Below the pieces are notes generated by a model. That model was not told the DNA's origin. It made no database searches and saw only the letters and a program-made list of their open reading frames with translations. From positions 174,532 to 238,531 of the forward strand of contig NAUB01000018.1 in the NCBI GenBank assembly GCA_003676145.1: 64,000 bases of DNA, written 5' to 3'. Source of the DNA: a gamma proteobacterium symbiont of Stewartia floridana. GTDB taxonomy: Bacteria > Pseudomonadota > Gammaproteobacteria > Chromatiales > Chromatiaceae. This document shows, piece by piece, positions 8,053-60,414 of the stretch; the stretch's first letter is position 1; the number at the start of each line of letters is the position of its first letter. A program made the position numbers and the translations under genes.

Positions 8053-8502
8053 ATGGAAATTATTCTATTGCAAAAAGTGGATAACCTGGGTGATCTGGGT
8101 GAAAAGGTAAACGTTAAGAGTGGTTACGGTCGTAACTTCCTGATTCCCAGCGGTAAAGCCATTCCGGCTACCGAAGAGAATCTGAAGGTGTTCGAGCAGC
8201 GTCGCGCTGAGCTTGAGAAAGAGGCTCAGGAGAAGCTGCAGGCTGCCGAGTCCCGTAAAGCCAAGCTGGACGATATGGAAGTCTCCATCACCTGTAAGGC
8301 GGGTGATGAAGGACGTCTGTTCGGTTCAGTCGGTACCTCGGATATTGCCAAGGCTGTAAGCGCTGCTGGCGAGTCGGTGGAGAAGAAAGAGGTGATGCTT
8401 CCGAATGGCCCCTTCCGGATTGCCGGTGAGTATGACGTCGACCTGCATCTGCACGCCGATGTGGACGTGACCATCAAACTGACCATCGTCCCAGAGGCTT
8501 GA
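8053..8502 (+). CDS. rplI: 50S ribosomal protein L9
   Basis: Large-subunit protein binding 23S rRNA near the base of the L1 stalk. The 149 residues show the N-terminal domain [16 protein letters not shown], the signature [15 protein letters not shown], a long connecting helix rich in Glu/Lys/Ala, and the C-terminal domain with [16 protein letters not shown] 8053 is chosen over an in-frame GTG at 8044 because it gives the family's usual MEIILL start and has an AAGGG ribosome site nine bases upstream. Last ribosomal gene before a hairpin terminator. Confidence 0.98.
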
Positions 8503-8559
8503 TCGCCACTCACGGCGGTTGATCGTTACCCGCCATCGTGGGATAAACCACGGTTCTCG

Positions 8560-8584
8560 ACGGCGCCTTTCAGGCGCCGTTTGA
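8560..8584 (+). terminator. rho-independent-like terminator after rplI
   Basis: Perfect eight-base stem ACGGCGCC / GGCGCCGT with a five-base loop TTTCA, followed by TTTG. The U tract is short, but position after the ribosomal operon supports termination. Confidence 0.65.
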
Positions 8585-8589
8585 GGGTC

Positions 8590-8876
8590 TGTGATGACGA
8601 CGGTTACCGCCAACGGCACGACAGTTCCGCTTTCGCCAAGGGGGATTGGTTTGCAGCTGACTTTTTTGCAGTTGTTTCAACCCGTTGGCCATACTACCTT
8701 CAATACACTTCTCAGCTTGCTGATTGGTCAGCGGCATTTCATTCCCCAATCAGGCCGCGTTGAAGCATGCTGCAGCCGAAGCAGGGCTCTACTTCTCTTT
8801 CCTCGACTCCTGCAATACCGTATCCTTGTCTGTTCCTGCGGCCAATTTGGTTGAATCCAAAAATTAACCTATTCCG
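8590..8876. other. dnaB upstream region, no gene recognised
   Basis: Roughly 290 bases between the rplI terminator and dnaB. Short ORFs here show no recognisable protein pattern. The region should contain the dnaB-alr-radA promoter; no convincing box was found. Confidence 0.4.
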
Positions 8877-10283: not shown

Positions 10284-11380
10284 TGGAGTTTGCGCCGCAG
10301 GCATCGATCGATCATGCTGCCCTGAGGCACAATCTGAGAGTTGCCCGAAAAGCCGCTGAAACGAGCCGAATCTGGGCGGTCATCAAAGCGGATGGCTACG
10401 GCCATGGACTGTTGCGGGTTGCCGAGGCTCTGCAGGAAGCGGATGGGCTTGCCGTGGCACGGCTCGATGAAGCCCTGGCACTCAGACAGCAGGGTGTGGT
10501 CAGGCCCCTGTTGGTGCTCTCAGCCTGTATCAGTCGATCGGATTTCGAACAGGCGATCGCCGCAGACCTGCAGGTGGTCGTGCATCATCGGGATCAGTTG
10601 GCTGTTTTAGCGTCCCTCTCCTCGACCAGCCAGCGGCTATCTGTCTGGCTGAAGCTCGACAGCGGCATGCACAGATTGGGATTTACACCTGATGAGCTCG
10701 AGCAGAGCCTGGCGCAACTCAAGGCTCTGCCGGTTGTTGCTGATATCAATCTGATGAGCCATCTGGCGAATGGGGATGACCCGGAAGATCCTCTGACGGC
10801 GATCCAGTGTGAACAGCTGATGCAGATCGATCCATCCCCTTACAAAGCGCGCTCCCTGGCAAATTCAGCCGGGCTGTTGGCCAATCCGGCTACCCATCTT
10901 GATTGGGTGCGGCCCGGTATCATGTTGTATGGTGCTTCCCCCTTCATCAATACAACCGCCGCAGAGCTGGGACTGCAACCGGTGATGACCCTGAGCAGTC
11001 GTGTGATTGCGGTGAAATCGTGTCAGGCGGGTGATGCTATCGGCTACGGGGGGAGTTATGTCTGTCCTGAAGCCATGCCGGTGGCCGTGGTCGCGATTGG
11101 TTATGGGGACGGTTATCCACGTCATGCGCCGAACGGTACGCCGGTGCTGGTCGATGGGATTCGCCTGCCGCTGGTGGGACGGGTTTCGATGGACATGCTG
11201 TGTGTCGATGCCAGGGCGCAGAGCGGAATCAAGGTTGGCGATGAAGTGGTGCTGTGGGGAGAGGGCTTGCCGGTGGAGGAGATCGCCCGGCAGGCGGGCA
11301 GCATCGCCTATGAATTGCTCTGCGGTGTCAAACGACGGGTTCGATTTCATGATCTCAATCGCCAGCAGCGGGAGGCGTAA
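10283..11380 (+). CDS. alr: alanine racemase
   Basis: PLP enzyme converting L-alanine to D-alanine for peptidoglycan. The 365 residues contain the PLP lysine in WAVIKADGYGHG (K35), the substrate region GMHRLGF, RPGIMLYG near 210-220, and the second catalytic base in the GYGGSY segment, followed by GRVSMDM. Length matches single-domain bacterial racemases. ATG 10283 shares a base with the dnaB stop; a TTG three bases upstream is less likely. The next gene, radA, also starts on its stop codon. Confidence 0.97.
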   Translation: MEFAPQASIDHAALRHNLRVARKAAETSRIWAVIKADGYGHGLLRVAEALQEADGLAVARLDEALALRQQGVVRPLLVLSACISRSDFEQAIAADLQVVVHHRDQLAVLASLSSTSQRLSVWLKLDSGMHRLGFTPDELEQSLAQLKALPVVADINLMSHLANGDDPEDPLTAIQCEQLMQIDPSPYKARSLANSAGLLANPATHLDWVRPGIMLYGASPFINTTAAELGLQPVMTLSSRVIAVKSCQAGDAIGYGGSYVCPEAMPVAVVAIGYGDGYPRHAPNGTPVLVDGIRLPLVGRVSMDMLCVDARAQSGIKVGDEVVLWGEGLPVEEIARQAGSIAYELLCGVKRRVRFHDLNRQQREA

Positions 11381-12753
11381 TGGCACAGGGCGGTAAAAAA
11401 GCGGCGAAAACCCAATATGTCTGCAGTGCCTGTGGTGCCAGTTTTGCCAAATGGTCCGGTCAGTGTTCCGAGTGCCACTCCTGGAATGTGCTGGAGGAGA
11501 GCCTGGCCCCGACCACATCCCCCAAGGGACGCTTTGCCGGTTATGCGGGAACCGGTGGTCAGCAGGTGATGCCGTTGACCGAGGTTGAGATCGAGCATGA
11601 GGCCCGTACCACCACCGACAGCGCGGAACTCGATCGGGTGCTGGGTGGTGGTTTGGTCGAAGGTTCGGTGGTGCTGATTGGTGGTGATCCCGGTATCGGC
11701 AAGTCAACGCTGCTGATTCAGACCCTGGCCAGACTCTCTGTGAACATGCGCTCTCTATACGTGTCCGGCGAAGAGTCTCCGCGTCAGATATCGCTGCGTG
11801 CGAAACGACTCGATCTGGCGGTCGACAAGTTGAAACTGTTACCCGAAACCTGTGTTGAGCGGATTATCGCGGTCGCCGAGCAGGAGAAGCCCCAGGTGAT
11901 GGTGTTGGATTCCATTCAGACCATGTATACCGAACTGCTGCAGTCGGCACCGGGCTCCGTCTCCCAGGTGCGGGAGGCGACGGCGCAACTGGTGCACTAC
12001 GCCAAGCGCACCGGTACCGCACTGTTCCTGGTTGGCCACGTGACGAAGGAGGGCAGCCTGGCCGGACCCAGGGTGCTGGAGCACATGGTGGATACGGTAC
12101 TCTATTTCGAAGGGGAGTCGGGGAGTCAGTTTCGTCTGATTCGTACCATCAAGAATCGCTTTGGTGCGGTCAATGAACTGGGCATGTTTGCCATGACCGA
12201 CAAGGGTTTGAAGGCGGTCAGCAACCCCTCCGCCATATTTCTGTCGCGCCAGGCGGAGCAGGTGCCGGGCAGTGTGATTCTGGTGACCCGTGAGGGAACC
12301 CGCCCGCTGCTGGTCGAGGTTCAGGCGCTGGTGGATGAGAGTCCCCTGGCCAATCCACGACGAATCACCCTGGGACTGGAGCAGAACCGACTCTCCATGT
12401 TGCTGGCAGTGCTCCATCGGCATGGCGGTATCGGCATGTTCGACCAGGATGTCTATGTGAATGTGGTCGGTGGCGTGCGGATCACGGAGACCGCATCCGA
12501 TCTGGCGGTGTTGATGGCAGCCCTCTCCAGTTTCCGCAACCGACCACTCGATCAAGGGTTGGTGGTATTCGGTGAATTGGGGCTGACCGGGGAGATCAGG
12601 CCGGTTCCAAACGGACCGGAACGGTTGCGTGAAGCGGCGAAACACGGTTTCAAACGGGCGGTGGTGCCCAAGGCCAACGCCCCGAAACAACCTATTGAAG
12701 GCCTCGAAGTGGTTCCGGTTGAGACCCTGGCTGAGGTTCTGGAGATTACTTGA
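11380..12753 (+). CDS. radA: DNA repair protein RadA
   Basis: RecA-related branch-migration helicase for recombination intermediates. The 457 residues begin with a C4 zinc finger (C15, C18, C29, C32), then Walker A GGDPGIGKST near 101-110, the RadA-specific KNRFG motif near 253, and a C-terminal Lon-like domain ending in a region like RPVPNGPERLREAAKHG. The ATG overlaps the alr TAA (TAATG). A PilZ gene converges 24 bases downstream; a weak six-base hairpin (AGACGG/CCGTCT) overlaps both stop codons. Confidence 0.97.
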   Translation: MAQGGKKAAKTQYVCSACGASFAKWSGQCSECHSWNVLEESLAPTTSPKGRFAGYAGTGGQQVMPLTEVEIEHEARTTTDSAELDRVLGGGLVEGSVVLIGGDPGIGKSTLLIQTLARLSVNMRSLYVSGEESPRQISLRAKRLDLAVDKLKLLPETCVERIIAVAEQEKPQVMVLDSIQTMYTELLQSAPGSVSQVREATAQLVHYAKRTGTALFLVGHVTKEGSLAGPRVLEHMVDTVLYFEGESGSQFRLIRTIKNRFGAVNELGMFAMTDKGLKAVSNPSAIFLSRQAEQVPGSVILVTREGTRPLLVEVQALVDESPLANPRRITLGLEQNRLSMLLAVLHRHGGIGMFDQDVYVNVVGGVRITETASDLAVLMAALSSFRNRPLDQGLVVFGELGLTGEIRPVPNGPERLREAAKHGFKRAVVPKANAPKQPIEGLEVVPVETLAEVLEIT

Positions 12754-46604: not shown

Positions 46605-48650
46605 CTAGCGCATCAAGTCGAGCAAACCACCACTGCCTTTATTGGCATCGATATACTCAGCCACTTCATCATGATTTCCCCGTCGGGCGAGGTCTTCGGC
46701 ACTCTCACGTCGCAGGTTGAGATGGTGGGCATTGGCTTTCATCTCCAGCAGACGTTTTACAATGGAGAGATGTCCCTGTTCTGCTGCAAGCATCAGGGCG
46801 CTGTTCCCTGCATTGTTGCGATGTTCCAGGTTTTCCGAATAGCGTAACAGGATATTCAGCGTGTTCAGCGAACCGCTTCTGGCCGCCAGCATCAATGCCG
46901 TATTGCCATTGTTACTCAGCCGGTCCACATAACCCTCACGGGGAATCAGCTCTTCCACCATGTCCGCATGACCGTTTGCAGCGGCGCGCATCATGGGGGT
47001 GAGTCCATCATCAGCCTGCAATTCGATTTTTGCACCACTCTTCAACAGTTGATGAAAAATAGTGGGATCACCAACATCAATCGCGTGGTAGAGCGGAGTG
47101 CGGCCCTTGTTGTCTGCCTGATCCGGTGAGGCACCGCGCGCAAGTAAAATCTTGACGATTTCAGGCTGGGCTTTGAGTACCGCCAGTATCAATGGCGTGA
47201 TACCGGTATCGGTGGTGGTGGACAGTCGGGCATTGTTTCTGATCAGCAGCTCTACCAACTGCAGATTCTGTTGCTCGATCGCCAGATGCAGTGGCGTTAT
47301 CTCATGTTTGCCGGAGACATCAATTTTTGCACCACGTGCGATCAACAGCTTGACCAGCTTCAGGTTGTTCTCACGGCAGGCCAGCAATAGAGGGGTCGGG
47401 CTGCCGCTGGCCGCCAGATTGGGATCGGCACCATGATCGAGCAGTAAGGTTGTCACTTCATCGTGGCCCTGCCATACGCTTCGGCTGAGTGGGGTCAATC
47501 CCTCAGGATCCAGTGTGTCGAGATCACTCTCCTGTTTGAGCAGTGCCTCGATCAAAGGCTTCTGGCCACGCCAGGCGGCAAGATGCAAGGTACTCCAGCC
47601 GGCAAACGGATTGCTCTTGTTTTCCGGGTTATCATTCGACAGGGAAATCGATGCGGTGATCTTCGCAAGATCCGGGAACTCTTTGGTTTTGTTTTGAGTC
47701 TGGGTTGCGATACCACCAGCGGCCTTAAGTTGTCTGGCAATTGCTTTGTCATTACGCAGTATTGCCATATCCAGTGAGGTCTGTTTTTTGCGGTTTTTGG
47801 CATTCACACTGGCACCATTTTCCAGCAGGGCCTTAATGGCCTCCAGGTGTTTTCTGCCGGTGGCGACCAACAAAGGCGTGTTTTCATTGGCGTCCAGGGT
47901 TTCCGTCTTGGCGCCAGCCTTGATCAGGCTGCGCACAATCGATGCGTAGCCTAAACCGGCCGCGGAGTGGAGCGGGGTGTCCCCGAGGCTGTCACTGGTA
48001 TTCGGATTGGCGCCCGCTGCAAGCAGGATTTCAACCGCATTTGTTCGACCATTGATAGCCGCCTCATGCAGGGCGCTGCGACTGAACTCATCCCGGGTAT
48101 CGGGAGAGAGACCTGATGCCAGAATACGTTTCAGGGTTTCACTCTTGCCTGCCGCCGCCGCACGATTGAGAAATTCGGCCGCTTGCTGGTCGCTCAAGCC
48201 TGTCACCGGAGAGGTGGTGGCGAGATTTTCCAACCGCTTCTTGGCCAATCGATGACCCTGAATCGCGGCTTTGTCGTACCATTCGCTGGCGACTGCTGAA
48301 TCCGCATCGACTCCCCAGCCGTTTTCATACATGGTGCCGGTGGTGTACTGGGCTTCGGTATGCTCCTGATTGGCGGCTTTCAGGTACCAGTGGAGTGCCT
48401 TGGCATAATCCTTCTTGACACCGCGGCCGCCACGATAGAGCCCTCCCAGTGCAAATTGCGCCTCGGCATCGCCCTGCTTGGCCAGTTGAGTGTAGATCCC
48501 GACGGCACGATTGAAATCCCGGATACGAATCGCCGCTTCTGCCTCGGCATGTTCTGCTGAAAGTATTGGCAAGGGTACAACCAGTGTGAGACACAGCAAC
48601 ATTGCCATCACTGCCTGTCTGATTATTGTCTTGGATCTAGGCGGTGCCAT
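46605..48650 (-). CDS. secreted Sel1- and ankyrin-repeat protein
   Basis: A 681-residue predicted periplasmic scaffold protein. It has a signal peptide (about 1-32, ending LPILSA before EHAEAEAA), two to three Sel1-like repeats (about 45-120, with AEAQFALGGLYRGGRGV and AEAQYTTGTMYENGWGV), then about 14 ankyrin repeats with TPLHxAA-type motifs to near the end. ATG 48650 is preferred: it follows GGAAA by seven bases, gives a clean signal peptide and overlaps the upstream oxidoreductase gene by only 14 bases. A longer upstream frame merely reads that gene out of frame. It is probably co-transcribed with the oxidoreductase; partner unknown. Confidence 0.88.
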   Translation of the reverse strand: MAPPRSKTIIRQAVMAMLLCLTLVVPLPILSAEHAEAEAAIRIRDFNRAVGIYTQLAKQGDAEAQFALGGLYRGGRGVKKDYAKALHWYLKAANQEHTEAQYTTGTMYENGWGVDADSAVASEWYDKAAIQGHRLAKKRLENLATTSPVTGLSDQQAAEFLNRAAAAGKSETLKRILASGLSPDTRDEFSRSALHEAAINGRTNAVEILLAAGANPNTSDSLGDTPLHSAAGLGYASIVRSLIKAGAKTETLDANENTPLLVATGRKHLEAIKALLENGASVNAKNRKKQTSLDMAILRNDKAIARQLKAAGGIATQTQNKTKEFPDLAKITASISLSNDNPENKSNPFAGWSTLHLAAWRGQKPLIEALLKQESDLDTLDPEGLTPLSRSVWQGHDEVTTLLLDHGADPNLAASGSPTPLLLACRENNLKLVKLLIARGAKIDVSGKHEITPLHLAIEQQNLQLVELLIRNNARLSTTTDTGITPLILAVLKAQPEIVKILLARGASPDQADNKGRTPLYHAIDVGDPTIFHQLLKSGAKIELQADDGLTPMMRAAANGHADMVEELIPREGYVDRLSNNGNTALMLAARSGSLNTLNILLRYSENLEHRNNAGNSALMLAAEQGHLSIVKRLLEMKANAHHLNLRRESAEDLARRGNHDEVAEYIDANKGSGGLLDLMR

Positions 48651-49953
48651 GTTTGGTTTCCACATTGATACCAGTCTCTTTAAGAAAACCTGTTGGAAGT
48701 ATACCGCCGGCACAGATGATGGCGGCGTCATTGGGAATTTCAATCTTCTCCCCACCCTTGTCGATAGTGACAGTCTCTTCAGTGAATTCAGTAACATTGG
48801 TGCTGAGCAACAGATTGAGTTCGCCTGATGCGGCAGCCTGATCCACCTTCTCGCGATTCTTCTTCTTTGCCCGGCTAAAGGCGCCACTGCGGTAGGAGAG
48901 GGTGACTGTGGTGCCAGGTTCCGCAGCGATACTGGTTGCCGCTTCAAGCGCACTGTCACCGCCGCCAACCACCAGTACATGCTGGTTCTTATACTGTTCC
49001 GGATCGATCAATCGGTAGGTGATCTTACTCAGATCCTCGCCAGGCACACCGAGTTTTCGGGGCGTACCGCGACGGCCGATGGCCAGCAGGACCATGCGGG
49101 TATGATAGGTGTCTTTGTTGGTCTTCACATCATAGCCACCTGCCGGGTTGGCAGTTATCTTCTCCACCCGTTCATGGTAGCTGATCTGCACGCCGGTTTT
49201 TTGCTCCACATCCTGCCAGAACTCAAGCAGTTTCTCTTTGGTGGTTTCAGTGAATTTAACCTCGCCTACCACGGGCAGTTTTACCGGTGCAGTCATCACC
49301 AGTTTACCTCTGGGAAACTGGAATACCGTTCCTCCCAGAGACTCCTGCTCCACGGTCTTGTATTTGAGCTTCTTCTCCATCGCCCGCAATGAGGCACAGA
49401 ATCCGGCCGGTCCGGCACCCACGATCAGCAGATCCAGGGGGGCGCTGCCCTCGCTTTTCAGTGCCTCCAGGATCTGGTCCATGGCTTTGGTGCCCTGCAC
49501 GATGGCGTTTCTGATCAGACCCATGCCACCCAGTTCACCGGCGATGTAGATACCCGGCATGCTGGTTTGAAAATTATCCAGTAAGGGGATATCGACACCG
49601 CGCCGTTCCGTGCCGAAGACCAGGGTAATGGCATCAAAAGGGCAGGCGGTTTTGCAGGCGCCGTGGCCGATGCAGTTGGTCGGGGCGATCAGTTCGGCCT
49701 TATTGTCGATCAGTCCGAGCACCGGATGGTTGGCCTGCTCCGGGCAGGCTTTCACACAGGTTCCGCAACCCATGCATTTAGCCGGATCGATCAGTGGGTG
49801 GAGAGAGGCCGGTTCGGTCAGGCCCGCTTCGAACTCTTCCGTCTTAAGGGCAAGATTCTTTTTACTTTTCCTACGGCTATGCAATACGTAAATAGCCCAT
49901 ACAAGGAGTATGGGTATCAGGTAGATCAGCAGGAAATCGATGGTGTACTGCAT
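48637..49953 (-). CDS. membrane-anchored ferredoxin/FAD NAD(P)-type oxidoreductase
   Basis: A 438-residue redox protein. Residues 5-26 form one membrane helix; a two-cluster ferredoxin domain follows. Cluster one has C60, C63, C66 and C70 (CMGCGTCVKACP). Cluster two has C94, His97 in place of the second Cys, C100 and C104 (CIGHGACKTACP). Then comes a TrxR/YpdA-like flavoprotein with FAD motif GAGPAG near 179-184 and a second nucleotide motif GGGDSALEAA near 326-335. It could pass electrons between NAD(P)H, ferredoxin and the membrane. It is divergent from a cytochrome-b-like gene and two multiheme cytochrome genes, suggesting one redox pathway. Direction of electron flow unknown. Confidence 0.82.
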   Translation of the reverse strand: MQYTIDFLLIYLIPILLVWAIYVLHSRRKSKKNLALKTEEFEAGLTEPASLHPLIDPAKCMGCGTCVKACPEQANHPVLGLIDNKAELIAPTNCIGHGACKTACPFDAITLVFGTERRGVDIPLLDNFQTSMPGIYIAGELGGMGLIRNAIVQGTKAMDQILEALKSEGSAPLDLLIVGAGPAGFCASLRAMEKKLKYKTVEQESLGGTVFQFPRGKLVMTAPVKLPVVGEVKFTETTKEKLLEFWQDVEQKTGVQISYHERVEKITANPAGGYDVKTNKDTYHTRMVLLAIGRRGTPRKLGVPGEDLSKITYRLIDPEQYKNQHVLVVGGGDSALEAATSIAAEPGTTVTLSYRSGAFSRAKKKNREKVDQAAASGELNLLLSTNVTEFTEETVTIDKGGEKIEIPNDAAIICAGGILPTGFLKETGINVETKHGTA

Positions 49954-50236: not shown

Positions 50237-51148
50237 ATGCAAACAGCAGCCATATCAACCAGTGTAAATGAGTCAGTACTGGAGAGTATCCTCTCTGCCT
50301 GGCAGCGCAGAGCGGGGCTTATAACAACCCTTGGATTTACCCTGTTTTCACTCCTGCTGCTCTATATGGCATGGTTGAACCACTCCCAGGCGGTGTGGAC
50401 AGCTGAGGCCGGCTGGGGGTACTGGCTCGGTATCGTCGGTGGCAGCATGATGTTGCTGCTACTGCTCTATCCGATGCGCAAACGTCTCCACTTTATGTCC
50501 AAATGGCTGACTGTCAAGTTCTGGTTCCGCATGCACATGGTGTTTGGTGTGCTCGGTCCAGTACTGATCATGATGCACTCCAGCTTCCATATCGGCTCCC
50601 TGAACGGCCAGGTGGCCCTCTACAGCATGCTGTTCGTTGCCATCAGCGGTCTCTTCGGGCGCTACTTCTATACCCGAATCCACTACGGTTTGTATGGTAA
50701 AAAGGCCACATTTGCCTCACTGCACGCCGACTCTCTGGTGTTGACCAAGAAACTCGGGCGTCTGTTTGAATTGAATCCGAAAGCCAAGGAGCTGATGAAG
50801 CAGTATGAAAAGGATGTCATGAATGCTCCTACCGGCCCGATCGCCAGCGCCAAACACTGGGTCAAGATGCGCTACACCTCAGCCGTGCTCTACCCTAAAG
50901 TGATGCGTTCACTGAACAAGAAACTGCTGGCAGTGGGCTACAAGAAAGGCTGGTCAAAGTCCAAAGTCCGGCGCAATCAGCTGCGCATCAGAAAAATGCT
51001 GTTGTCACACAGATCTATCCTTCGGCAGATTCTAGAGCTACATTTCTATGAAAGACTCTTTGCGATCTGGCATCTGCTGCATATGCCGCTCTTCATCATG
51101 ATGGTGATTACCGGTTTTGTGCATGTCTATGCTGTGCATGCCTACTAG
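50237..51148 (+). CDS. multi-histidine cytochrome-b-like membrane protein
   Basis: A 303-residue inner-membrane protein with about five membrane helices (near 27-50, 63-88, 103-122, 131-150, 275-300). Histidines sit where b-heme ligands are expected: RMHMVFG and MMHSSFHIG around helix three, and WHLLHMP and GFVHVYAVH in the last helix. It therefore resembles ferric-reductase or quinol-oxidising diheme cytochrome b proteins, although no named family is certain. ATG 50237 is chosen because AGGTGA lies five bases upstream. It is followed after 35 bases by a 21-heme cytochrome c and then a 67-heme cytochrome c, so it probably connects the quinone pool to them. Confidence 0.75.
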   Translation: MQTAAISTSVNESVLESILSAWQRRAGLITTLGFTLFSLLLLYMAWLNHSQAVWTAEAGWGYWLGIVGGSMMLLLLLYPMRKRLHFMSKWLTVKFWFRMHMVFGVLGPVLIMMHSSFHIGSLNGQVALYSMLFVAISGLFGRYFYTRIHYGLYGKKATFASLHADSLVLTKKLGRLFELNPKAKELMKQYEKDVMNAPTGPIASAKHWVKMRYTSAVLYPKVMRSLNKKLLAVGYKKGWSKSKVRRNQLRIRKMLLSHRSILRQILELHFYERLFAIWHLLHMPLFIMMVITGFVHVYAVHAY

Positions 51149-51183: not shown

Positions 51184-52758
51184 ATGAATCGATTTGGCTG
51201 GCATGTCATTTGCGTACTTGTGCTAATGATATTTACCCTATCTCCAAGCCATGCAGGGAAGCTGGATCTACTCTTGATGCCGGGACCGGTCATCGAAGGC
51301 CATGCCGAGTTCGAAGAGAAGTGTGAGAGCTGTCATGAGACCTTGAAAAAAGCGGAGCAGGTTGAGCGATGCCTGGCTTGTCATGATCATAGTGATGTGG
51401 CCAAGGATATCGAGCAGGGTACCGGCTTTCACGGCAGACTGGATGAGGAGCGCGCCGCCAACTGCAAACAGTGCCATACCGACCATAAAGGCAGGGATCG
51501 GGATATCGTCAATCTGGATACGGAAGATTTTGATCACTCACAGACCGATTTCCAGCTCAGGGGCCGCCATGAGCAGTTGGCCTGCCAGCTTTGTCATACC
51601 AAAGAGTATAAGAAATACAGCCAAGCCCCCTCGCTCTGTTTCGATTGCCATGAGTCGGACGATGCCCACCGTGGGGAATTGGGCGAAGAGTGCGATAAAT
51701 GTCATAACGAGAAGAGCTGGCGCAAACAGGATTTCGATCATGACCTGGATACCGATTATCCACTGACCGGAAAACATCGGGATCTCGACTGTAAGCTCTG
51801 TCACGCGGATGAACACTACAAGAACACCCCCAAAGAGTGTATTGGCTGCCATCTGATCAATGATGCGCACAATGGCCGTTACGGCCAGGTCTGTGCGAAA
51901 TGCCACGCGACCGAGGATTGGAAGGAGCTCTCTTTCGATCATCGTGCGGATACCAAATTCCCGCTTGAGGGCCGCCATAAGGATGTGCCCTGTGATACCT
52001 GCCATACCCGCGGCCCATTTGAAAAGAAGATCTCAAAGAAGTGTTTCGCCTGTCACGAGAAAGATGATGACCATAAAGGGCGTAACGGTGAGAAGTGTCA
52101 GGATTGTCATCGTCCATCAAGTTGGACTGAGACCAAGTTCGATCACGGCAAAGACGCTAAATTTGAATTGAAAGGCAAACACAAAAAACTGAGTTGTCAC
52201 GCCTGTCACCGAAATGCCGCGATGGATGACTTGAAAGAGGCCGAGTGTATCACCTGCCATCGGGCCATCGATCTGCATAAAGGCGATCTGGGTGAGGATT
52301 GCGGTTACTGCCACAATGAAAAAGGCTGGACAGAAAAGCTCTTTTTCGAGCACGACATCACACGTTTTCCATTGATCGGGATCCATAGCGTCACCGCCTG
52401 TGAATCCTGTCATCTCGATGCGGTCTATCCACAGACAGCGATCGAGTGCCTCTCCTGTCATGAAAAAGACGACACCCATGAAGGAAAAATGGGTGAGCTG
52501 TGTGGCGATTGCCACAACCCGAATGCCTGGATGCTCTGGACCTTTAATCACGACGAACAGACAGAATTTCCATTGGATGGCAAGCACGGTGAGGTTTTCT
52601 GCCATGCCTGCCATCGTGCTGAGTTGACTGAGCACAAACAGTCAGCCAACCACTGTTACGGATGTCATCGTGGGGATGACATACATCGTGGTGGATTTGG
52701 GCGGCATTGTGATCGCTGCCACTCCACGGAAACTTTCGAGAATCCGGAAATTCGCTGA
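51184..52758 (+). CDS. 21-heme periplasmic cytochrome c
   Basis: A 524-residue protein with a signal peptide (1-24, ending SHA before GK) and 21 CxxCH heme-binding motifs. After three N-terminal hemes, the chain is six copies of a roughly 66-residue, three-heme module, each with F-D/E/N-H, FPLxGxH, CxxCH, CxxCH, a DDxHxG segment and a third CxxCH before an aromatic residue. The extra histidines can be axial ligands for bis-His hemes. The protein is very rich in Asp, Glu and Lys. It ends 10 bases before the giant cytochrome gene. Likely a periplasmic electron relay between the membrane b protein and the giant cytochrome; requires the Ccm heme-attachment system. Confidence 0.88.
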   Translation: MNRFGWHVICVLVLMIFTLSPSHAGKLDLLLMPGPVIEGHAEFEEKCESCHETLKKAEQVERCLACHDHSDVAKDIEQGTGFHGRLDEERAANCKQCHTDHKGRDRDIVNLDTEDFDHSQTDFQLRGRHEQLACQLCHTKEYKKYSQAPSLCFDCHESDDAHRGELGEECDKCHNEKSWRKQDFDHDLDTDYPLTGKHRDLDCKLCHADEHYKNTPKECIGCHLINDAHNGRYGQVCAKCHATEDWKELSFDHRADTKFPLEGRHKDVPCDTCHTRGPFEKKISKKCFACHEKDDDHKGRNGEKCQDCHRPSSWTETKFDHGKDAKFELKGKHKKLSCHACHRNAAMDDLKEAECITCHRAIDLHKGDLGEDCGYCHNEKGWTEKLFFEHDITRFPLIGIHSVTACESCHLDAVYPQTAIECLSCHEKDDTHEGKMGELCGDCHNPNAWMLWTFNHDEQTEFPLDGKHGEVFCHACHRAELTEHKQSANHCYGCHRGDDIHRGGFGRHCDRCHSTETFENPEIR

Positions 52759-52768
52759 TTGATTCGGT

Positions 52769-55700
52769 ATGGAAAATAGGATGATGAGACTGCCTAACTA
52801 TAGATTACTGTTGCAACAGGCCAGCTGGCTCTTGGCCGTTGTTGTCAGTCTGTCATTGATGAATTTCGTCCACGCCGAGAGCGCCGAATTCGACCATTTT
52901 GAAACCGGCTTTCCGCTCACTGGTGAGCATCGCAACGTGGAGTGCGATCAGTGTCATGACAAGGGGCAGTTCCAGGGCACACCGGTGATGTGTGACGGCT
53001 GCCATAACGATACCGATGCAGCCGGTAAGCCGATCGATCACATTCAGAGTGACGACCGCTGTGATGATTGCCATACCACAGTCGGCTGGCATGTGGCCCG
53101 TTTCGATCACGGTACCATCGAGAGTGGCTGTTTCTCCTGTCACAACGGTTCGGCAGCCCAGGGCAAGGACAGTGACCATATCAGTACCGGTAATACTTGC
53201 GAGTTCTGCCACACCACTTTCAGTTGGGGCCGGGTCAGCCGTGTGGATCACTCGGTAGTGACCGGCACCTGTGAAAGTTGCCATAACGGCAATATTGCCC
53301 GCGGTAAACACGATACCCACATTGCCACCGAAGAGCCCTGCGATACCTGCCATATCACCAACAGCTGGTTACTGGTCTTTTTCGATCATTCGGCCGTTGC
53401 TGCCGGCAGCTGTGAAACCTGTCATAACGGCACCAGCGCGACGGGTAAATCGGCCAGTCATATTTTGACCAATGAGGCCTGCGATCTCTGCCATACCACC
53501 AACAGCTGGCGAGTGGATAACTTCTCTCATGCCGGAATCCGCGGAGATTGCGAGAGCTGCCATAACGGGGTCAGCGCAATCGGAAAGCCGGTCGGTCATG
53601 TGCCAACCAGTGAACCGTGTGAGATCTGTCATACTTCGACCAACTCCTGGTTGGTGGTTAACTTTGTCCATGGAGAGGAGGTGTTTGGCCGTTGCTCCAG
53701 TTGTCATGACGGTGTTACACAGCCCGGAAAGGATGCGGATCATGTACAGACCACCGCAGAGTGCGATACCTGTCATACCTCGACTGAGGACTGGAGTGTG
53801 GTTGGTTTCGATCACAGTGAAGTGGTAGCGGGTACCTGTGCGAGTTGTCATGATGGCGTACAGGCGCCAGGCAAACACGATACCCATATTGTCACCAATG
53901 AGTCCTGCGACGTCTGTCATGTAACCACCGCGAACTGGCATGTCATTAGCTTCAGTCATGACGGCTTCCAGAGCGCCGGTGTCTGTTCAACCTGCCATGA
54001 CGGTACCCGTGCAACCGGTAAACACGCACAGCATATTCAGACCGCTGAACAGTGCGATGTCTGTCACCTCTCCACCGACAACTGGCTGAATACCAGTTTT
54101 GACCACAGTGGGGTGGATGCTGCCGGGCGCTGCTCAAGCTGTCACAACGGTACCCAGGCAACCGGCAAGCATGCGGCTCACATAGAGACCACCGAGCAGT
54201 GTGATGTCTGCCATAACTCAACCAGTAACTGGAGTGATGTCAGCTTTGATCACAGCTCGATCGAAACCGCCGGCGTCTGTTCAACCTGTCACAACGGCGT
54301 ACGCGCCACCGGCAAGCACGCCAATCACCTGCAGACCAACGGCGAGTGCGACACCTGCCATACAACCACTGCCTGGAACGTCAACAACTTCTCCCATGAA
54401 GGTATCACTGCGGATTGTGAGTCCTGCCACAATGGAGTGACCGCCACCGGCAAGCATTCGAATCATATCCTCACCACCTCACCCTGTGAGGCGTGTCACT
54501 CAACCAATGACTGGACACTGACAGGTTTTACCCATGAAGGTGTCTCCGGAACCTGTGAATCCTGCCATAACGGCAATGTGGCCACCGGTAAGCACGATAA
54601 CCACATACCGACCACCGCCTCATGCGACAATTGCCACAACACCAACGCCTGGACAATCAGCAACTTCAGTCATGAAGGGGTAACCGAGAGTTGTCACTCC
54701 TGTCATGATGGTGTGCGAGCCACTGGCAAGCACGATACCCATGTGGCCACAACGGCCGTCTGTGAAGGTTGTCATACCTCGACCACCAGCTGGGCGGAGG
54801 TTACCTTCGACCACTCCATCGTCACCGGCACCTGTGCCAGCTGTCATGACGGGGTAACCGCAACCGGTAAGTCGGCAAACCATATCGAGACCACAGCGGC
54901 CTGTGACAACTGCCATATCTCCAACGAGACCTGGACCGCGGTTCGCTTCGACCACAGTGGCATCACCAGTGGCTGTGAATCCTGCCACAATGGGGTGGAT
55001 GCGACGGGTAAACCGGCCACCCACATTCCCACCACAGAGCCCTGTGAGAACTGCCATAACACCATCACCTGGAGTACCGGCCGTTTTGATCATGCGGGTG
55101 TGGCAGGGGCCTGTTCGAGCTGTCATGATGGCGTGGTTGCGACAGGCAAACACGCCACGCATATCCCCACGGATGCCCAGTGTGACAGCTGCCACACATC
55201 AACCATCGACTGGCTGTTGCTCACCTTCAATCATGACAACGTGGCTGCCAGCGGCAACTGCTCCAACTGCCATGACGGTACTCAGGCAACCGGTAAGCAT
55301 GCGCAACATATCGAAACCACGGCTCAGTGTGATATTTGCCACCTCTCCACCATCAACTGGCAGGATACAAGCTTCGACCATAGTGGCGTGACCACCACCG
55401 GCGTCTGCTCGAGCTGTCACAACGGCACCACAGCCACCGGCATGCACAGCAACCACATCGCCACCACCGAGCAGTGTGATGCCTGCCATACCTCGACCAC
55501 CAGCTGGCTGAGGGTCAGTTTCGATCACAATTCCGTGCCGACAGCAGGGGTCTGTTCAAGCTGTCACAACGGGGTCCGGGCTACCGGTAAGCACGCCGGC
55601 CATCTGCAGACCAACGCCCAGTGCGACACCTGTCATACGGTGGATGGATGGCTGATCTCCAATTTCGACCATGCGGGGATCACCGGGGATTGTGAATCCT

Positions 55701-57721
55701 GCCATGACGGCACCACCGCCACCGGTAAACATGCCGGACATATAGCGACCACCCAGCCCTGCGAGGATTGTCATACACCGACCAACTGGAACCTCAACGG
55801 CTTTACCCACAGTGGTGTTACCACGGCCTGTCATCTCTGTCATAACGGGGATATCGCCATTGGCAAGTCACCCTCCCATGTGTTGACCAACGCCACCTGT
55901 GATACCTGCCACACCACCAGCAGCTGGACAATCACCAACTTCAACCATGATGGGGTTACGGACAGCTGCCAATCCTGTCACGACGGGGTCAGGGCAACCG
56001 GCAAGCATGCCGCCCATGTGGCGACCACAGCCTCCTGTGAAGCCTGCCATACCTCCACCAACAACTGGTTGCAGATCACCTTTGATCATGCGGTGGTTTC
56101 CGGCGCCTGCGCCAGCTGTCACGACGGCAATACTGCAACCGGCAAACCGGCCGACCATGTGCAGACCAATGCGGCTTGTGACAACTGCCATATCTCCAAT
56201 ACCACCTGGTTGAACATCCGCTTTGATCACACCGGTATCGTCTCCGGCTGTGCAAGCTGCCACAACAATGTGGATGCCACGGGGAAACCGGCCAATCACA
56301 TACCGACCAATGAGCCGTGCGAGAACTGTCACACCACGGTGACCTGGGCAACCGGTACTTTCGACCATGCTGGTGTTGCGGGAACCTGCTCAAGCTGTCA
56401 CAACGGCACCATCGCCACCGGTAAACATGCGAGCCATATCCTTACCAGTGGTCAGTGCGACAGCTGCCACATCTCAACCGTCAACTGGCTCTCGGTTCGC
56501 TTCGACCACAGCACCGTGACCGGTAGCTGTCAGAGCTGCCATAACGGCACCATCGCCACAGGCAAATCGGCCAGCCATGTGGCCACCACTGCGGCCTGTG
56601 ATGTCTGTCATACTTCCCAGACCACCTGGACCGCGGTCAACTTCGATCACTCCGTGGTTACCGGTACCTGCTCGAGTTGTCACAATGGAGTCACCGCTAC
56701 CGGTAAACCGGCCAGCCATGTACCCACCACCTCCGAGTGCGATGCCTGCCATACCTCCCAGACGAACTGGCTGGCGGTCAGGTTTGATCACACCAATGCG
56801 GCGGGCAACTGCTCCAACTGCCATGATGGTATTACTGCCACCGGCAAGGATCCGGGGCATGTGCCGACCACGGCCCAGTGTGACGAGTGTCATCTCTCGA
56901 CAACCAACTGGCTGAATGTACGCTTCACCCACGGCAATGTGGCGGGTACCTGTTCAACCTGTCATAACGGGGTCACCGCAACCGGTAAACATGCCGGCCA
57001 TATCCAGACCTCGGGTCAGTGCGATACCTGCCATATGTCGACAACCGACTGGACCAACGTCGATTTCAACCACGGCAGCATCATTACCGGCTGTTCCAGC
57101 TGTCATAATGGCTCCCTGGCAACCGGCAAGCCCGCTAACCATATTCCGACCACGCAGGAGTGTAATATCTGTCATAACTCAACCAATAACTGGTTGAATG
57201 TGACCTTCAGTCACACCAATGTGGCGGGTACCTGTTCGAACTGCCATAACGGCACATTTGCCACGGGTAAGTCGGCCAGCCATCTGCCGACTACGGCTCA
57301 GTGTGATAACTGTCATACCTCGACCAGTAACTGGCTCAGCGTGACCTTTGATCACAGTGGTGTGACAGGCAACTGTAACAGCTGCCACAATGGCACGACG
57401 GCCACAGGTACGCCTCAAGGACATTTTGTCACCACCCAACAGTGTGATGCCTGCCATACCACCAATGGTTGGTTGCCCGTGATAAATTATCGTCATACAT
57501 CCGGTAACTATCCGGGGGATCACCGGGCGAACCTGTCTTGTCAAGACTGCCACACCAGCAACAGTGAAGCTGTGCCCTGGCCATTCCCGACCTATGCCCG
57601 GACCTGTGCAGGCTGTCATGCCAATGACTACGAACCAGGGGAAGATGATCACAACGGGCTGAGTGCTGACCGGAACTGCGCCGGGAGCGGCTGTCATAGA
57701 GTCAATGCCCGTGAGTGGTAA
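52769..57721 (+). CDS. giant 67-68-heme tandem-repeat cytochrome c
   Basis: A 1650-residue exported cytochrome with signal peptide 1-36 (ending VHA before ES), 67 CxxCH motifs and one CX4CH (NCAGSGCH) at the C-terminus. Residues 98-1558 are 31 tandem units of 46-49 residues, each with C-x2-C-H, a Trp, F-D/S-H, a second C-x2-C-H-N/D-G, A-T-G-K and a final H-I/V. The two extra histidines per unit are probable axial ligands, implying bis-His hemes. Units 7-15 are duplicated as units 16-24. Both ends carry a single module resembling that of the 21-heme partner. Repeats are Thr/Ser/Asn/Gly-rich, as in surface proteins. The ATG at 52781 is an alternative start. Probably a long electron wire; location (periplasm or surface) unproven. 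Confidence 0.9.
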   Translation: MENRMMRLPNYRLLLQQASWLLAVVVSLSLMNFVHAESAEFDHFETGFPLTGEHRNVECDQCHDKGQFQGTPVMCDGCHNDTDAAGKPIDHIQSDDRCDDCHTTVGWHVARFDHGTIESGCFSCHNGSAAQGKDSDHISTGNTCEFCHTTFSWGRVSRVDHSVVTGTCESCHNGNIARGKHDTHIATEEPCDTCHITNSWLLVFFDHSAVAAGSCETCHNGTSATGKSASHILTNEACDLCHTTNSWRVDNFSHAGIRGDCESCHNGVSAIGKPVGHVPTSEPCEICHTSTNSWLVVNFVHGEEVFGRCSSCHDGVTQPGKDADHVQTTAECDTCHTSTEDWSVVGFDHSEVVAGTCASCHDGVQAPGKHDTHIVTNESCDVCHVTTANWHVISFSHDGFQSAGVCSTCHDGTRATGKHAQHIQTAEQCDVCHLSTDNWLNTSFDHSGVDAAGRCSSCHNGTQATGKHAAHIETTEQCDVCHNSTSNWSDVSFDHSSIETAGVCSTCHNGVRATGKHANHLQTNGECDTCHTTTAWNVNNFSHEGITADCESCHNGVTATGKHSNHILTTSPCEACHSTNDWTLTGFTHEGVSGTCESCHNGNVATGKHDNHIPTTASCDNCHNTNAWTISNFSHEGVTESCHSCHDGVRATGKHDTHVATTAVCEGCHTSTTSWAEVTFDHSIVTGTCASCHDGVTATGKSANHIETTAACDNCHISNETWTAVRFDHSGITSGCESCHNGVDATGKPATHIPTTEPCENCHNTITWSTGRFDHAGVAGACSSCHDGVVATGKHATHIPTDAQCDSCHTSTIDWLLLTFNHDNVAASGNCSNCHDGTQATGKHAQHIETTAQCDICHLSTINWQDTSFDHSGVTTTGVCSSCHNGTTATGMHSNHIATTEQCDACHTSTTSWLRVSFDHNSVPTAGVCSSCHNGVRATGKHAGHLQTNAQCDTCHTVDGWLISNFDHAGITGDCESCHDGTTATGKHAGHIATTQPCEDCHTPTNWNLNGFTHSGVTTACHLCHNGDIAIGKSPSHVLTNATCDTCHTTSSWTITNFNHDGVTDSCQSCHDGVRATGKHAAHVATTASCEACHTSTNNWLQITFDHAVVSGACASCHDGNTATGKPADHVQTNAACDNCHISNTTWLNIRFDHTGIVSGCASCHNNVDATGKPANHIPTNEPCENCHTTVTWATGTFDHAGVAGTCSSCHNGTIATGKHASHILTSGQCDSCHISTVNWLSVRFDHSTVTGSCQSCHNGTIATGKSASHVATTAACDVCHTSQTTWTAVNFDHSVVTGTCSSCHNGVTATGKPASHVPTTSECDACHTSQTNWLAVRFDHTNAAGNCSNCHDGITATGKDPGHVPTTAQCDECHLSTTNWLNVRFTHGNVAGTCSTCHNGVTATGKHAGHIQTSGQCDTCHMSTTDWTNVDFNHGSIITGCSSCHNGSLATGKPANHIPTTQECNICHNSTNNWLNVTFSHTNVAGTCSNCHNGTFATGKSASHLPTTAQCDNCHTSTSNWLSVTFDHSGVTGNCNSCHNGTTATGTPQGHFVTTQQCDACHTTNGWLPVINYRHTSGNYPGDHRANLSCQDCHTSNSEAVPWPFPTYARTCAGCHANDYEPGEDDHNGLSADRNCAGSGCHRVNAREW
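53906..55180 (+). repeat. 18-heme super-repeat, copy 1 (units 7-15)
   Basis: First copy of a 1275-bp in-frame direct repeat, residues 380-804 of the giant cytochrome. Unit lengths run 49,49,49,46,46,46,47,47,46 residues, the same series as in copy 2. Confidence 0.85.
55181..56455 (+). repeat. 18-heme super-repeat, copy 2 (units 16-24)
   Basis: Second copy, residues 805-1229, directly adjoining copy 1 with no net insertion or deletion. By eye, unit 14 and unit 23 share 37 of 47 residues, and unit 8 and unit 17 share 36 of 49, above the similarity of neighbouring units. Confidence 0.85.
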
Positions 57722-57873: not shown

Positions 57874-60414
57874 GTGCAGCTCAAATTTGAATCGAGGCTC
57901 CATTTCTGGCTGTTGCCACTGCTGTTGTTGTTATTCACGACACAGTCACAGGCTGCATCCAGGATTCTCGATCGTATCGAAATCGGTTCCGAAGAGGGGG
58001 CTAACGTCATTGCCGTGCACTTCAATGTGCCGGTCCGCTATGTGTCTCACCTGATCAATGAGTCTAACACTGAACTGGGAGTGCAGGTCAGGGTAGGGCA
58101 GACCACGGATACCGATCTGGGGGCTGCAACCGAGCAGGATCAGGATGGCGAGCTCGATCAGGAGGATCAGCTGACCTGGAGCCCGTCTGCGGCGGTGCCA
58201 CTGGATAAGGTGGTTTTTCAGGGCAGTCGACTGGGTACTTCCACTCTTTTGGTCTCTTTTGCTGCACCGGTAGGGGATGTGAAAATCCGTCAGGGCAGGG
58301 ACTTCTATGTGATGGAGTTTATTCTCCCGCAACAGGTCAGACGCAGCTCCGGCTTCGGCCAGGCCAGATTGAAGACGCTGCAGACCGAAGTGCCTGAGAT
58401 GAAGGCGCCGTTGAGTGTCAAGGCACTGCCCCTGGTGATCTATGTTCTGAATCTCGGAGTGCAGTCCGAACCGGTCGATTATGAGGAGATGCCGCCGGTG
58501 CCGATCGGCGAAAACCAACTGCTCTACAGCACCAAGGGTGAGATCGAAGGCAATCCGATCTACCGTTTGCGACTTGGTTTCTTTCGTACCAAACAGGACG
58601 CCAAACGGCAGCTGGAAGCGGTAAGAAGTTTCTATCCGGATGCCTGGATCGACACGGCGGATATTGTTGAGCGTCGCCAGGCCTTTTTTGAAAGGGGGCT
58701 GGAGCCGGGGCTGGACGGTCAGTACATGGAGGAGCCTGAGCTGGCCAATGTGGATCCCCGTATCACCAAGATGATGGATATGATCCGGCGCACCATCACC
58801 GCCGGTGACTATGCCAAGGCGGTGCGTTTACTGGAAGCCCTGCTGGAAGAGCCCGACAACATCTACACCCAGGAGGCTCTGGAGCTGCTGGGTCTGTCGC
58901 GTGAACGGAATGGACAGATTGCCCATGCGAAAGGGGAGTACCGACTCTATCTGGAAAAATACCCGGAAGGTGAGGATGCCGAGCGTGTAATGCAACGTTT
59001 GTTGGGACTCGAGACCGCACCTCAACGACCCAAAGAGACCTTACGCAAAAGGCCAAAACCGGGTGAACCTGGCAGTGAAGAGGAAGAGGAGAGAGCGATC
59101 TGGGATGTCTACGGCAGTTTCTCCCAGAACTACCGCCGGGATAAGATCGACAGCCCCTTTGTCGAGGATGAAGACAGTATCTCCCGCTCGGAGATCGAGA
59201 GTTTTGTCGATTTCAATGCCCGTCGTCGCAATGAGGACTACGACATGCGCATGAAAGTCACCGGCAGCTATATCTACGATCTGCTGGATGATGGGGAGAA
59301 TGATACCACCCTGAGTGACGCCTATATCGATGTGGAACACCTGGACAGTCGAACCAGCGCCAAGTTTGGCCGTCAAAGGCTCCGTTCAAGCGGTATCCTG
59401 AATCGCTTTGACGGCTTGGTGCTCGGCTATGAGCTGACACCGGATATCAATATCAGAGCCTCAGCGGGTCTGCCGGTGGAGCGTTCCAGAGATACCTTTC
59501 TGCATGATCACAAACAGTTTGCCGGGATCAGCGGTGATTTCTCCAGCATCTTTGAGAATTGGGATGCGAGCCTGTTCTTCGTCGAGCAGCGGGTGGATGG
59601 TCTGGTTGATCGCAGGGCAGTGGGTGGCGAGGTCCGCTATTATGATCCGCAAAAGTCCCTGTTCAGTCTGGTCGATTACGATATCTTCCACAAAGAGCTG
59701 GGCATTTTCATGCTGCAGACCAACTTGCGCCTGGAGAGCAAAACCAGCCTCTATCTCAATCTGGATTACCGCACCAGCCCAATCCTGATGACCTCGAATG
59801 CCTTGAGTGGACAGTCCGACCCGGACAGCTTCCTGCCCATCGAATCGATTGAGGAGCTGCAGGATTTCTACAGTGATGACGAGATCTACGATCTCGCCCT
59901 GGACCGTACCGCCAAATCCACCAGTATCTCGTTGGGTGTCACCCATCCATTTTCGGACACCCTGCAGTTGAGTGGCGACTTCACCGCCAGCAAAACCGGG
60001 GAGACGCCGGCCTCAGGGGGCGTGTTGGCCACAGATGCCACCGATACGGAGTTCTTCTACTCCTTTCAGGTGATCAAAAACGATCTGTTGAAACAGGGGG
60101 ATATCGGGGTCTTTACCCTCAGGTATTCCGATTCGGATACCTCGGACACCTACCGGGTCGGGGTCAGCAGTCGCTATCCAATCACCAACGCCTGGCGAGT
60201 CAATCCGCGTCTGGATGTCTCCTATCGGGAAAACAAAGAGAATGAGGGTACCCGCTTTACGGTCAGTCCGTTCCTGCGCATGGACTATCGACTGCGCAAA
60301 GACTTCACCTTCGAACTGGAGGGGGGCGTGAACTGGTTTGAAGAGGATGACGGTACCGAGGTGACCAACTTCACCGATTTCTTCTTCTACGCAGGCTATC
60401 GATGGGATTTTTAA
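57874..60414 (+). CDS. outer-membrane beta-barrel protein with SPOR-like and TPR segments
   Basis: An 846-residue predicted outer-membrane protein. It has a signal peptide (1-27 or 28, ending SQA), an AMIN-like beta domain (about 29-150), a SPOR-like segment (about 228-262, YRLRLGFFRTKQDAKRQLE), one or two TPR-like helices (about 305-375), and a C-terminal region (about 410-846) of alternating beta-strands ending in YRWDF, typical of barrels recognised by BAM. The start is GTG, fixed by an in-frame TAA nine bases upstream. It follows the giant cytochrome after a terminator. It could be the porin sheath of an electron conduit, or a polysaccharide exporter like PgaA/AlgE-type TPR porins. Confidence 0.7.
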   Translation: MQLKFESRLHFWLLPLLLLLFTTQSQAASRILDRIEIGSEEGANVIAVHFNVPVRYVSHLINESNTELGVQVRVGQTTDTDLGAATEQDQDGELDQEDQLTWSPSAAVPLDKVVFQGSRLGTSTLLVSFAAPVGDVKIRQGRDFYVMEFILPQQVRRSSGFGQARLKTLQTEVPEMKAPLSVKALPLVIYVLNLGVQSEPVDYEEMPPVPIGENQLLYSTKGEIEGNPIYRLRLGFFRTKQDAKRQLEAVRSFYPDAWIDTADIVERRQAFFERGLEPGLDGQYMEEPELANVDPRITKMMDMIRRTITAGDYAKAVRLLEALLEEPDNIYTQEALELLGLSRERNGQIAHAKGEYRLYLEKYPEGEDAERVMQRLLGLETAPQRPKETLRKRPKPGEPGSEEEEERAIWDVYGSFSQNYRRDKIDSPFVEDEDSISRSEIESFVDFNARRRNEDYDMRMKVTGSYIYDLLDDGENDTTLSDAYIDVEHLDSRTSAKFGRQRLRSSGILNRFDGLVLGYELTPDINIRASAGLPVERSRDTFLHDHKQFAGISGDFSSIFENWDASLFFVEQRVDGLVDRRAVGGEVRYYDPQKSLFSLVDYDIFHKELGIFMLQTNLRLESKTSLYLNLDYRTSPILMTSNALSGQSDPDSFLPIESIEELQDFYSDDEIYDLALDRTAKSTSISLGVTHPFSDTLQLSGDFTASKTGETPASGGVLATDATDTEFFYSFQVIKNDLLKQGDIGVFTLRYSDSDTSDTYRVGVSSRYPITNAWRVNPRLDVSYRENKENEGTRFTVSPFLRMDYRLRKDFTFELEGGVNWFEEDDGTEVTNFTDFFFYAGYRWDF

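Follow-up and report, generated by a model that had tools for sequence, protein, structure and literature searches.

A giant cytochrome c with 68 heme-attachment motifs, the probable outer arm of a PCC3-type electron conduit in Ca. Thiodiazotropha

Introduction

Among described electron conduits, those of the PCC3 type come closest to the gene cluster reported here. They combine an outer-membrane porin, a large extracellular cytochrome, a periplasmic cytochrome, and a membrane protein of ∼300 amino acids, and were proposed for iron oxidizers, with a quinone as the proposed inner partner (He et al. 2017, PMC5566968). In that account, heme sites number 63 and 85 in extracellular cytochromes of PCC3, and the medians are 34 and 21. 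For the PCC3 clusters of the Gallionellaceae, periplasmic cytochromes of 21–27 hemes and extracellular cytochromes of a variable 10–35 hemes were described, the AlphaFold2 models of which are long and mostly linear (PMC10734462). The function of PCC3 is stated to be untested (PMC12442390).

Here, we describe a PCC3-type cluster from a stretch of 64,000 nucleotides (the whole of which we refer to as the window), in which a first-pass annotation had pointed out a single gene for a cytochrome c with 67–68 hemes.

Organization of the gene cluster

The cluster and its flanking genes comprise the following features.

46605–48650, minus strand: ankyrin/Sel1-repeat protein, the start of which resembles a signal peptide (by eye); profile matches
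48637–49953, minus strand: Fe-S/FAD oxidoreductase with 2×[4Fe-4S] and FAD/NAD(P), YpdA/TrxB/FNR-like; profile matches, co-conservation
50237–51148, plus strand: inner-membrane protein, 303 amino acids from the ATG, two WX3HX13H motifs and SGXXG, predicted to bind two b-type hemes; motifs
51184–52758, plus strand: 21-heme cytochrome c, 524 amino acids, mostly three-heme repeats, predicted periplasmic arm; motif count, conservation
52769–57721, plus strand: giant cytochrome c, 67 CxxCH and one CX4CH, predicted extracellular arm of the PCC3 conduit; motif count, conservation, Pfam
53060–57442 (residues 98–1558 of the giant), plus strand: 31 two-heme units; repeat analysis
57874–60414, plus strand: outer-membrane protein, 846 amino acids; Pfam, AlphaFold2, Foldseek

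The four gene-level features described for PCC3 (PMC5566968) are all found in this cluster: an outer-membrane barrel gene, here for a protein with 22 predicted strands and a C-terminal phenylalanine; a very large cytochrome with 22–39 residues per heme, here with 68 motifs and 24.3 residues per heme; a second cytochrome with a median of 21 hemes, here the neighbor with 21 CxxCH motifs; and a membrane protein of ∼300 amino acids with two WX3HX13H motifs and SGXXG, here of 303 amino acids. Judged by these genes, the cluster is of the PCC3 type.

In the inner-membrane protein (the listed GTG start of which lies 9 bases upstream of the ATG), the motif residues are invariant in 13 of 13 sequences, and the motifs are complete in 35 of 36 loci. 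The protein shares 50–52% identity with two relatives from tubeworm symbionts. Several public records label relatives of this diheme-b-like protein “transcriptional regulator,” which is probably a propagated misannotation. At locus L066 (genome G166), the gene was matched in two pieces with one WX3HX13H in the best match, possibly owing to a frame break.

The Fe-S/FAD gene is transcribed divergently from the plus-strand genes of the cluster, and its end is overlapped by the ankyrin/Sel1 gene. At the N terminus of its product, basic residues come after a hydrophobic stretch (by eye), which we read as a membrane anchor; the protein carries 4Fe-4S motifs and a FAD/NAD(P) fold resembling YpdA, TrxB, and FNR type 2. 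Downstream of the outer-membrane protein gene follow housekeeping genes (crcB-like, serS), so the unit ends at the outer-membrane protein gene. Scans for promoters and terminators found sites no more numerous than in shuffled sequences. The genome also holds a gene of the CcmF/NrfE heme-lyase type, which scores above the family cut-off.

Heme motifs and repeat architecture of the giant cytochrome

The giant cytochrome is encoded by a single uninterrupted open reading frame of 1,650 codons for amino acids. A direct count gives 67 CxxCH motifs and one CX4CH motif, i.e. 68 heme-attachment motifs, whereas 2,000 composition shuffles of the same sequence yielded 1.05 CxxCH on average and never more than 6. 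Two N-terminal and four C-terminal hemes lie outside the repeat (2 + 31 × 2 + 4). Hemes 3–64 form exactly 31 tandem two-heme units of 46–49 residues, each with one tryptophan. Units 7–15 and 16–24 represent a nine-unit block that is present twice (425 amino acids each, 68% amino acid and 71% DNA identity). The protein matches Pfam Cytochrome_C7 above the cut-off. If the signal peptide is cleaved after residue 36, the mature polypeptide would weigh about 170.7 kDa, to which 68 hemes would add about 41.9 kDa.

Besides the 68 histidines within the motifs, the giant contains 89 others (157 in total), 68 of which stand at positions expected of distal ligands. These candidates are His-43 and His-54 before heme 1, His-1585 after heme 65, His-1628 after heme 67, and one histidine at +16/+17 following each of hemes 2–65. 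Because the number of distal histidines is 68, we count the CX4CH motif as a probable real heme site. All cysteines of the protein belong to heme motifs. The recount thus agrees with the first-pass annotation on the number of motifs and on the 31 units, and bears out its claim of two conserved histidines per unit, sufficient for bis-His ligation; its estimate of about one heme per 25 residues compares with a measured 24, a density typical of proposed wire cytochromes.

Conservation of candidate heme ligands

Eighteen loci carry a giant with 67 + 1 motifs and yield 15 distinct sequences including that of the window (L009, L011, and L015 duplicate sequences already counted). Across these 15 sequences, all 68 proximal histidines and 136 of 136 cysteines are invariant, as are 67 of the 68 distal histidines. 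Elsewhere in the protein, 711 of the 1,338 remaining positions and 12 of the 20 remaining histidines are invariant. The dN/dS ratio is 0.03–0.08 in six pairs of giant sequences, with dS saturated in four distant pairs; by this sequence measure, the giant is under purifying selection.

A corresponding pattern is seen in the 21-heme neighbor, where all 21 motifs and exactly 21 of the 30 non-motif histidines are invariant across an alignment of 13 sequences, of which the 12 from elsewhere share 42–78% identity with that of the window. As read from the alignments, there is a conserved partner histidine for every heme in both cytochromes, 68 for 68 (67 invariant) in the giant and 21 for 21 in its companion.

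Structure predictions

The outer-membrane protein was predicted by AlphaFold2 with fair confidence (mean pLDDT 76.3, pTM 0.50) from an alignment of 23 of 26 sequences (that of the window and 25 found). In the model, residues 411–845 form 22 predicted strands that end in the C-terminal phenylalanine and constitute a candidate barrel. The strands are preceded by an N-terminal β domain, a SPOR-like part (above the Pfam cut-off), and TPR-like helices. The 50 Foldseek matches listed are porins, pilus ushers, and exporters with TM scores below 0.5, and MtrB is not among them. By sequence, no convincing match to this protein was found in the PDB.

For the giant, residues 41–526 (486 residues, the first 20 hemes) gave an unusable model with a mean pLDDT of 44.7 and a pTM of 0.24. 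The underlying alignment comprised 23 of 27 segments, with L070, L082, L083, and homologues of fewer than 23 motifs set aside earlier. PDB sequence matches of the giant (6f0k, MtrC, and 6r2q) are weak and partial, as are those of the 21-heme companion, and in both cases may arise from CxxCH composition alone.

Occurrence of the cluster

The closest named loci are those of Ca. Thiodiazotropha, symbionts of lucinid clams, and the giant is 97.6% identical to its counterpart in Ca. T. taylori (L006). The cluster or its giant is found in 20 of the 22 genomes of the genus, and the same gene set recurs wherever the contig extends far enough. Among the cluster-bearing genomes other than the 15 with 67 + 1 motifs, the giant is split over contigs in G163 and G165, has 61 + 1 motifs in G167 and G168, and 49 + 1 in G169. 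The two genomes without the cluster are G171 (2.6 Mb, 93% complete), which has no match to the giant, and G172 (5.0 Mb), which has a weak one (4.0e-5); neither matches the membrane protein. Given the small genome of G171, cluster loss may there accompany genome reduction.

A second giant of 1,879 amino acids with 70 CxxCH and one CX4CH is encoded in G169 (L070:5849–11485). It has a lipoprotein-like N terminus (..LQIAGCGGG..), its heme spacing repeats as in a large internal duplication, and the open reading frames upstream resemble RnfC/RnfD (by eye). No second giant of this kind was found in the genome of the window.

Outside the genus, the gene set recurs in other Gammaproteobacteria and in a single genome from a different class (G356), with altered strand, distance, or content. 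In a sample of 398 genomes from across the phylum, 6, among them that of the window, have a full-length match to the membrane protein (E ≤ 1e-60).

At 33 of 36 loci, the Fe-S/FAD gene and the membrane-protein gene lie 0.3–8.4 kb apart. Of the remaining three, L071 ends before the place, and L080 and L082 show no Fe-S/FAD gene near the cluster in the ∼6 kb of upstream sequence covered. Within the order (210 genomes), the Fe-S/FAD gene (E ≤ 1e-60) and the full-length membrane protein (E ≤ 1e-80) were each matched in 29 genomes, 28 of them shared. The two genes therefore stand together in 28 of the 30 genomes having either, the exceptions being G024 (Fe-S/FAD only) and G170 (membrane protein only); the count leaves aside 26 of the 55 genomes with a membrane-protein match at 1e-10, these matches being weak and partial. 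The ankyrin/Sel1 gene adjoins the cluster in every cluster-bearing genome of the genus whose contig is long enough, as well as in several further genomes; the stretches L081, L083, and L084 gave no match to it. In G064, the giant is present on a contig that begins inside the 21-heme gene, and neither the Fe-S/FAD nor the membrane-protein gene was found.

Proposed electron path and its direction

We consider it probable that the giant cytochrome is the extracellular arm of a PCC3-type conduit that moves electrons across the outer membrane and tens of nanometers outward. In the conduit that we infer, NAD(P)H or reduced ferredoxin would reduce the membrane-anchored Fe-S/FAD protein, from which the two b hemes of the 303-residue membrane protein would carry electrons over the inner membrane. 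The 21-heme cytochrome would bridge the periplasm, and the predicted 22-strand barrel would pass electrons through the outer membrane to the 68-heme arm, which would deliver them outside. Both cytochromes would be loaded with heme and linear in shape, and would form a complex with the barrel. The co-conserved Fe-S/FAD gene suggests that electrons enter at the level of NAD(P)H or ferredoxin.

As to direction, we hold the chances to be about even that electrons flow outward, so that electrons from sulfur oxidation could be dumped when oxygen or nitrate is short. Inward flow, with Fe(II) minerals, reduced humics, or other microbes outside the cell as donors and NAD(P)H formed for the fixation of carbon or nitrogen, is possible but clearly less likely. 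It would be in keeping with the proposal of PCC3 for iron oxidizers (PMC5566968), with the NAD(P)H-binding relatives of the linked Fe-S/FAD protein, and with iron-oxidizing Sideroxydans CL21, for which one PCC3 membrane-protein gene is reported to be up (PMC12442390). In Sideroxydans ES-1, by contrast, both PCC3 clusters are reported to be lower on Fe(II) than on thiosulfate (PMC8788666), which argues against Fe(II) uptake there and fits a role in a sulfur oxidizer, although it falls short of proving outward flow; the rise in CL21 points the other way. Moreover, the named relatives include sulfur oxidizers, which have another electron donor at hand (in part after PMC6872982). Storage or some other role for the conduit is rather improbable.

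Length variation of the two cytochromes

Of 32 intact loci, 31 encode a companion cytochrome of 21 or 24 hemes; the exception, L076, has 20, and one of its motifs reads CNSSH. The coefficient of variation (CV) of the companion is 0.05, whereas the giant ranges from 12 to 68 hemes with a CV of 0.39; short giants of 12–14 hemes occur at L019 and L020. Eighteen of the 32 loci come from one genus; with 15 representatives, the CV is 0.06 for the companion and 0.51 for the giant. The count omits the truncated, split, or gapped loci L047, L075, L077, L080, and L082 as well as the repeat loci L009, L011, and L015. In L075, the 21-heme gene is split in the assembly at about 8100–8600.

The spacings at the ends of the giant are constant in most loci (16 at the start; 30–32, 22, and 24–31 at the end), and the middle differs by two-heme units in most loci, with L081, L083, and L084 deviating. 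The heme total is even in 13 of the 15 representatives and odd in L046, where a motif is lost (CASCLN), and in L083. From these sequences, the outer arm appears to change length in steps of complete two-heme units. In a tree of the other three cluster proteins (29 loci, rooted on L084 by choice), the longest arms are found in Thiodiazotropha (67, 61, and 49 CxxCH) and its sister group (62 and 47), and the shorter giants (11–34 CxxCH) outside the two.

Because the companion keeps to 20–24 hemes while the giant varies between 12 and 68, we infer that the companion spans the fixed width of the periplasm and that the giant is free outside. This reading of the arm locations would agree with where He et al. 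place the two cytochromes and with the 21–27 versus 10–35 hemes of the Gallionellaceae. In OmcS, each heme accounts for about 0.8 nm. MtrA, with 10 hemes, measures about 100 Å (PMC5566968). By extrapolation, 68 hemes would, if linear, extend over ∼55–70 nm and 21 hemes over 17–21 nm.

The length series bears on two further readings, both of them unlikely. The giant could be periplasmic, serving as a large relay or heme store next to a barrel with another job, as might be expected from its Sec-type signal peptide, which lacks a lipobox (by eye) and is accompanied by no visible export signal beyond Sec. However, an extended wire of ∼55–70 nm would be too long for a periplasm whose width the 21-heme partner may already bridge, and the free variation between 12 and 68 hemes also speaks against this location. 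With similarly low probability, the giant would not chiefly conduct but act as a capacitor that stores electrons in oxygen gaps and returns them later. Its 68 motifs per chain would suit such a role, which was suggested for PCC3 in the Gallionellaceae study (PMC10734462). Storage alone, however, needs no outer-membrane protein, conserved 21-heme partner, and b-type membrane protein to be kept together, and it leaves the constant 20–24 hemes of the companion unexplained.

Starting from the preferred reading of the giant as an extracellular arm, we tentatively propose, as a possibility well short of likely, that PCC3 is a modular wire. Its periplasmic arm of 21–24 hemes would be set by the width of the envelope, its outer arm would comprise 3 to 31 units between fixed ends, and a Fe-S flavoprotein would feed it from NAD(P)H or ferredoxin instead of quinone; clam gill symbionts could thereby export reductant over tens of nanometers to sediment minerals, other microbes, or host tissue. 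If the conduit works as predicted, a sulfur-oxidizing animal symbiont that respires oxygen and nitrate would possess a heritable long-range electron outlet, the genes for which are retained by 20 of the 22 genomes in its genus. The series of 12–68 hemes beside a near-constant companion raises two testable questions, namely whether the outer arm is tunable in length and whether NAD(P)H/ferredoxin or quinone supplies the conduit with electrons.

Repeat number

The units of the giant share an average DNA identity of 60%, and exact direct repeats in the gene reach at most 23 bp, which makes a collapse of reads unlikely. Of the 20 genomes of the genus that carry the cluster, 15 have the 67 + 1 motifs in one frame, the genome of the window included, and two of these (G096 and G162) are single-contig assemblies. 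Although metagenome-assembled genomes can get repeats wrong, and the homologue in L077 (G134) carries an N gap and scrambled frames at about 11300–12500, the 23-bp limit and the 15 concordant genomes make a wrong repeat number, which the first-pass annotation had named as what could refute the giant, very improbable.

Comparison with known systems

A protein search returned 2,316 relatives of the giant at E ≤ 1e-10. Among the best 120 of these, counted as relatives by repeat regardless of their PCC3 context, 42 have at least 67 CxxCH motifs and 9 at least 86, with a maximum of 115, which rules out a novel protein without homologues. The earlier impression that no homologue of this size had been described does not hold either: the cluster matches PCC3, and cytochromes with 85 and 86 hemes have been published. 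With 85 hemes reported by He et al. 2017, the giant counts among the large members of PCC3, short of the record.

Two assignments to known families were rejected. The giant passes NCBIfam TIGR03508 (DmsE) with 212.9 bits (cut-off 192.2), but this score is inflated by repeats, with 11 matching stretches against a model of 258 positions, and 68 motifs in 1,650 amino acids do not fit an MtrA/DmsE decaheme. Against TIGR03507 (MtrC/OmcA), it scores 20.2 bits, compared with a cut-off of 209.3.

As far as searched, the presence of the cluster in Ca. Thiodiazotropha, the arm of 12–68 hemes beside a companion of 20–24, and the co-conserved Fe-S/FAD gene are new. The full-text literature covered (main texts, mostly outside subscription journals) contained no multiheme cytochrome of Thiodiazotropha and no extracellular electron transfer in lucinids, and no multiheme cytochrome is mentioned for Thiodiazotropha in the accessible text of PMC6712303, PMC13167027, PMC13137333, PMC6872982, and PMC12172469. 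Thiodiazotropha and extracellular electrons are mentioned together in a magnetic-field study. The main text of He et al. 2017 does not contain the words ankyrin, Sel1, ferredoxin, pyridine, or Thiodiazotropha and mentions a Fe-S gene for the related PCC4 (PMC5566968). In the accessible text of the Gallionellaceae study, ankyrin, Sel1, and pyridine nucleotide are likewise absent, and ferredoxin appears in other contexts (PMC10734462). Gene neighborhoods with over a hundred heme motifs are mentioned elsewhere (PMC11475568), and the accessible parts of PMC2825233, PMC11748539, and PMC12545173 hold nothing that alters the PCC3 reading.

With PCC3 as described by He et al., the cluster shares all four components and a residue-per-heme value within the range given there (PMC5566968). 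That account names tubeworm symbionts, and relatives of the membrane protein from tubeworm symbionts were found here too. The 22 strands predicted for the outer-membrane protein compare with “up to 42” transmembrane regions in PCC3 porins (PMC5566968) and with 26 strands in MtrB (PMC12133095). In contrast to the Gallionellaceae clusters (PMC10734462), the outer arm here reaches up to 68 hemes and differs, in most lineages, by whole-unit steps between fixed ends.

Single chains of this size or larger are described from other lineages and contexts, namely an expressed cytochrome with 86 heme motifs in Desulfuromonas acetexigens (PMC12133095) and cytochromes with 20–80 hemes in ANME archaea (PMC9012536), a likeness drawn from their descriptions. 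The overall logic of a wire in a barrel joined to an outer cytochrome is shared with MtrCAB, MtoAB, and DmsE. The nanowires OmcS, OmcE, and OmcZ are likewise long-range heme wires, built as polymers of small subunits; whereas their length arises from subunit polymerization, here it is encoded in one chain.
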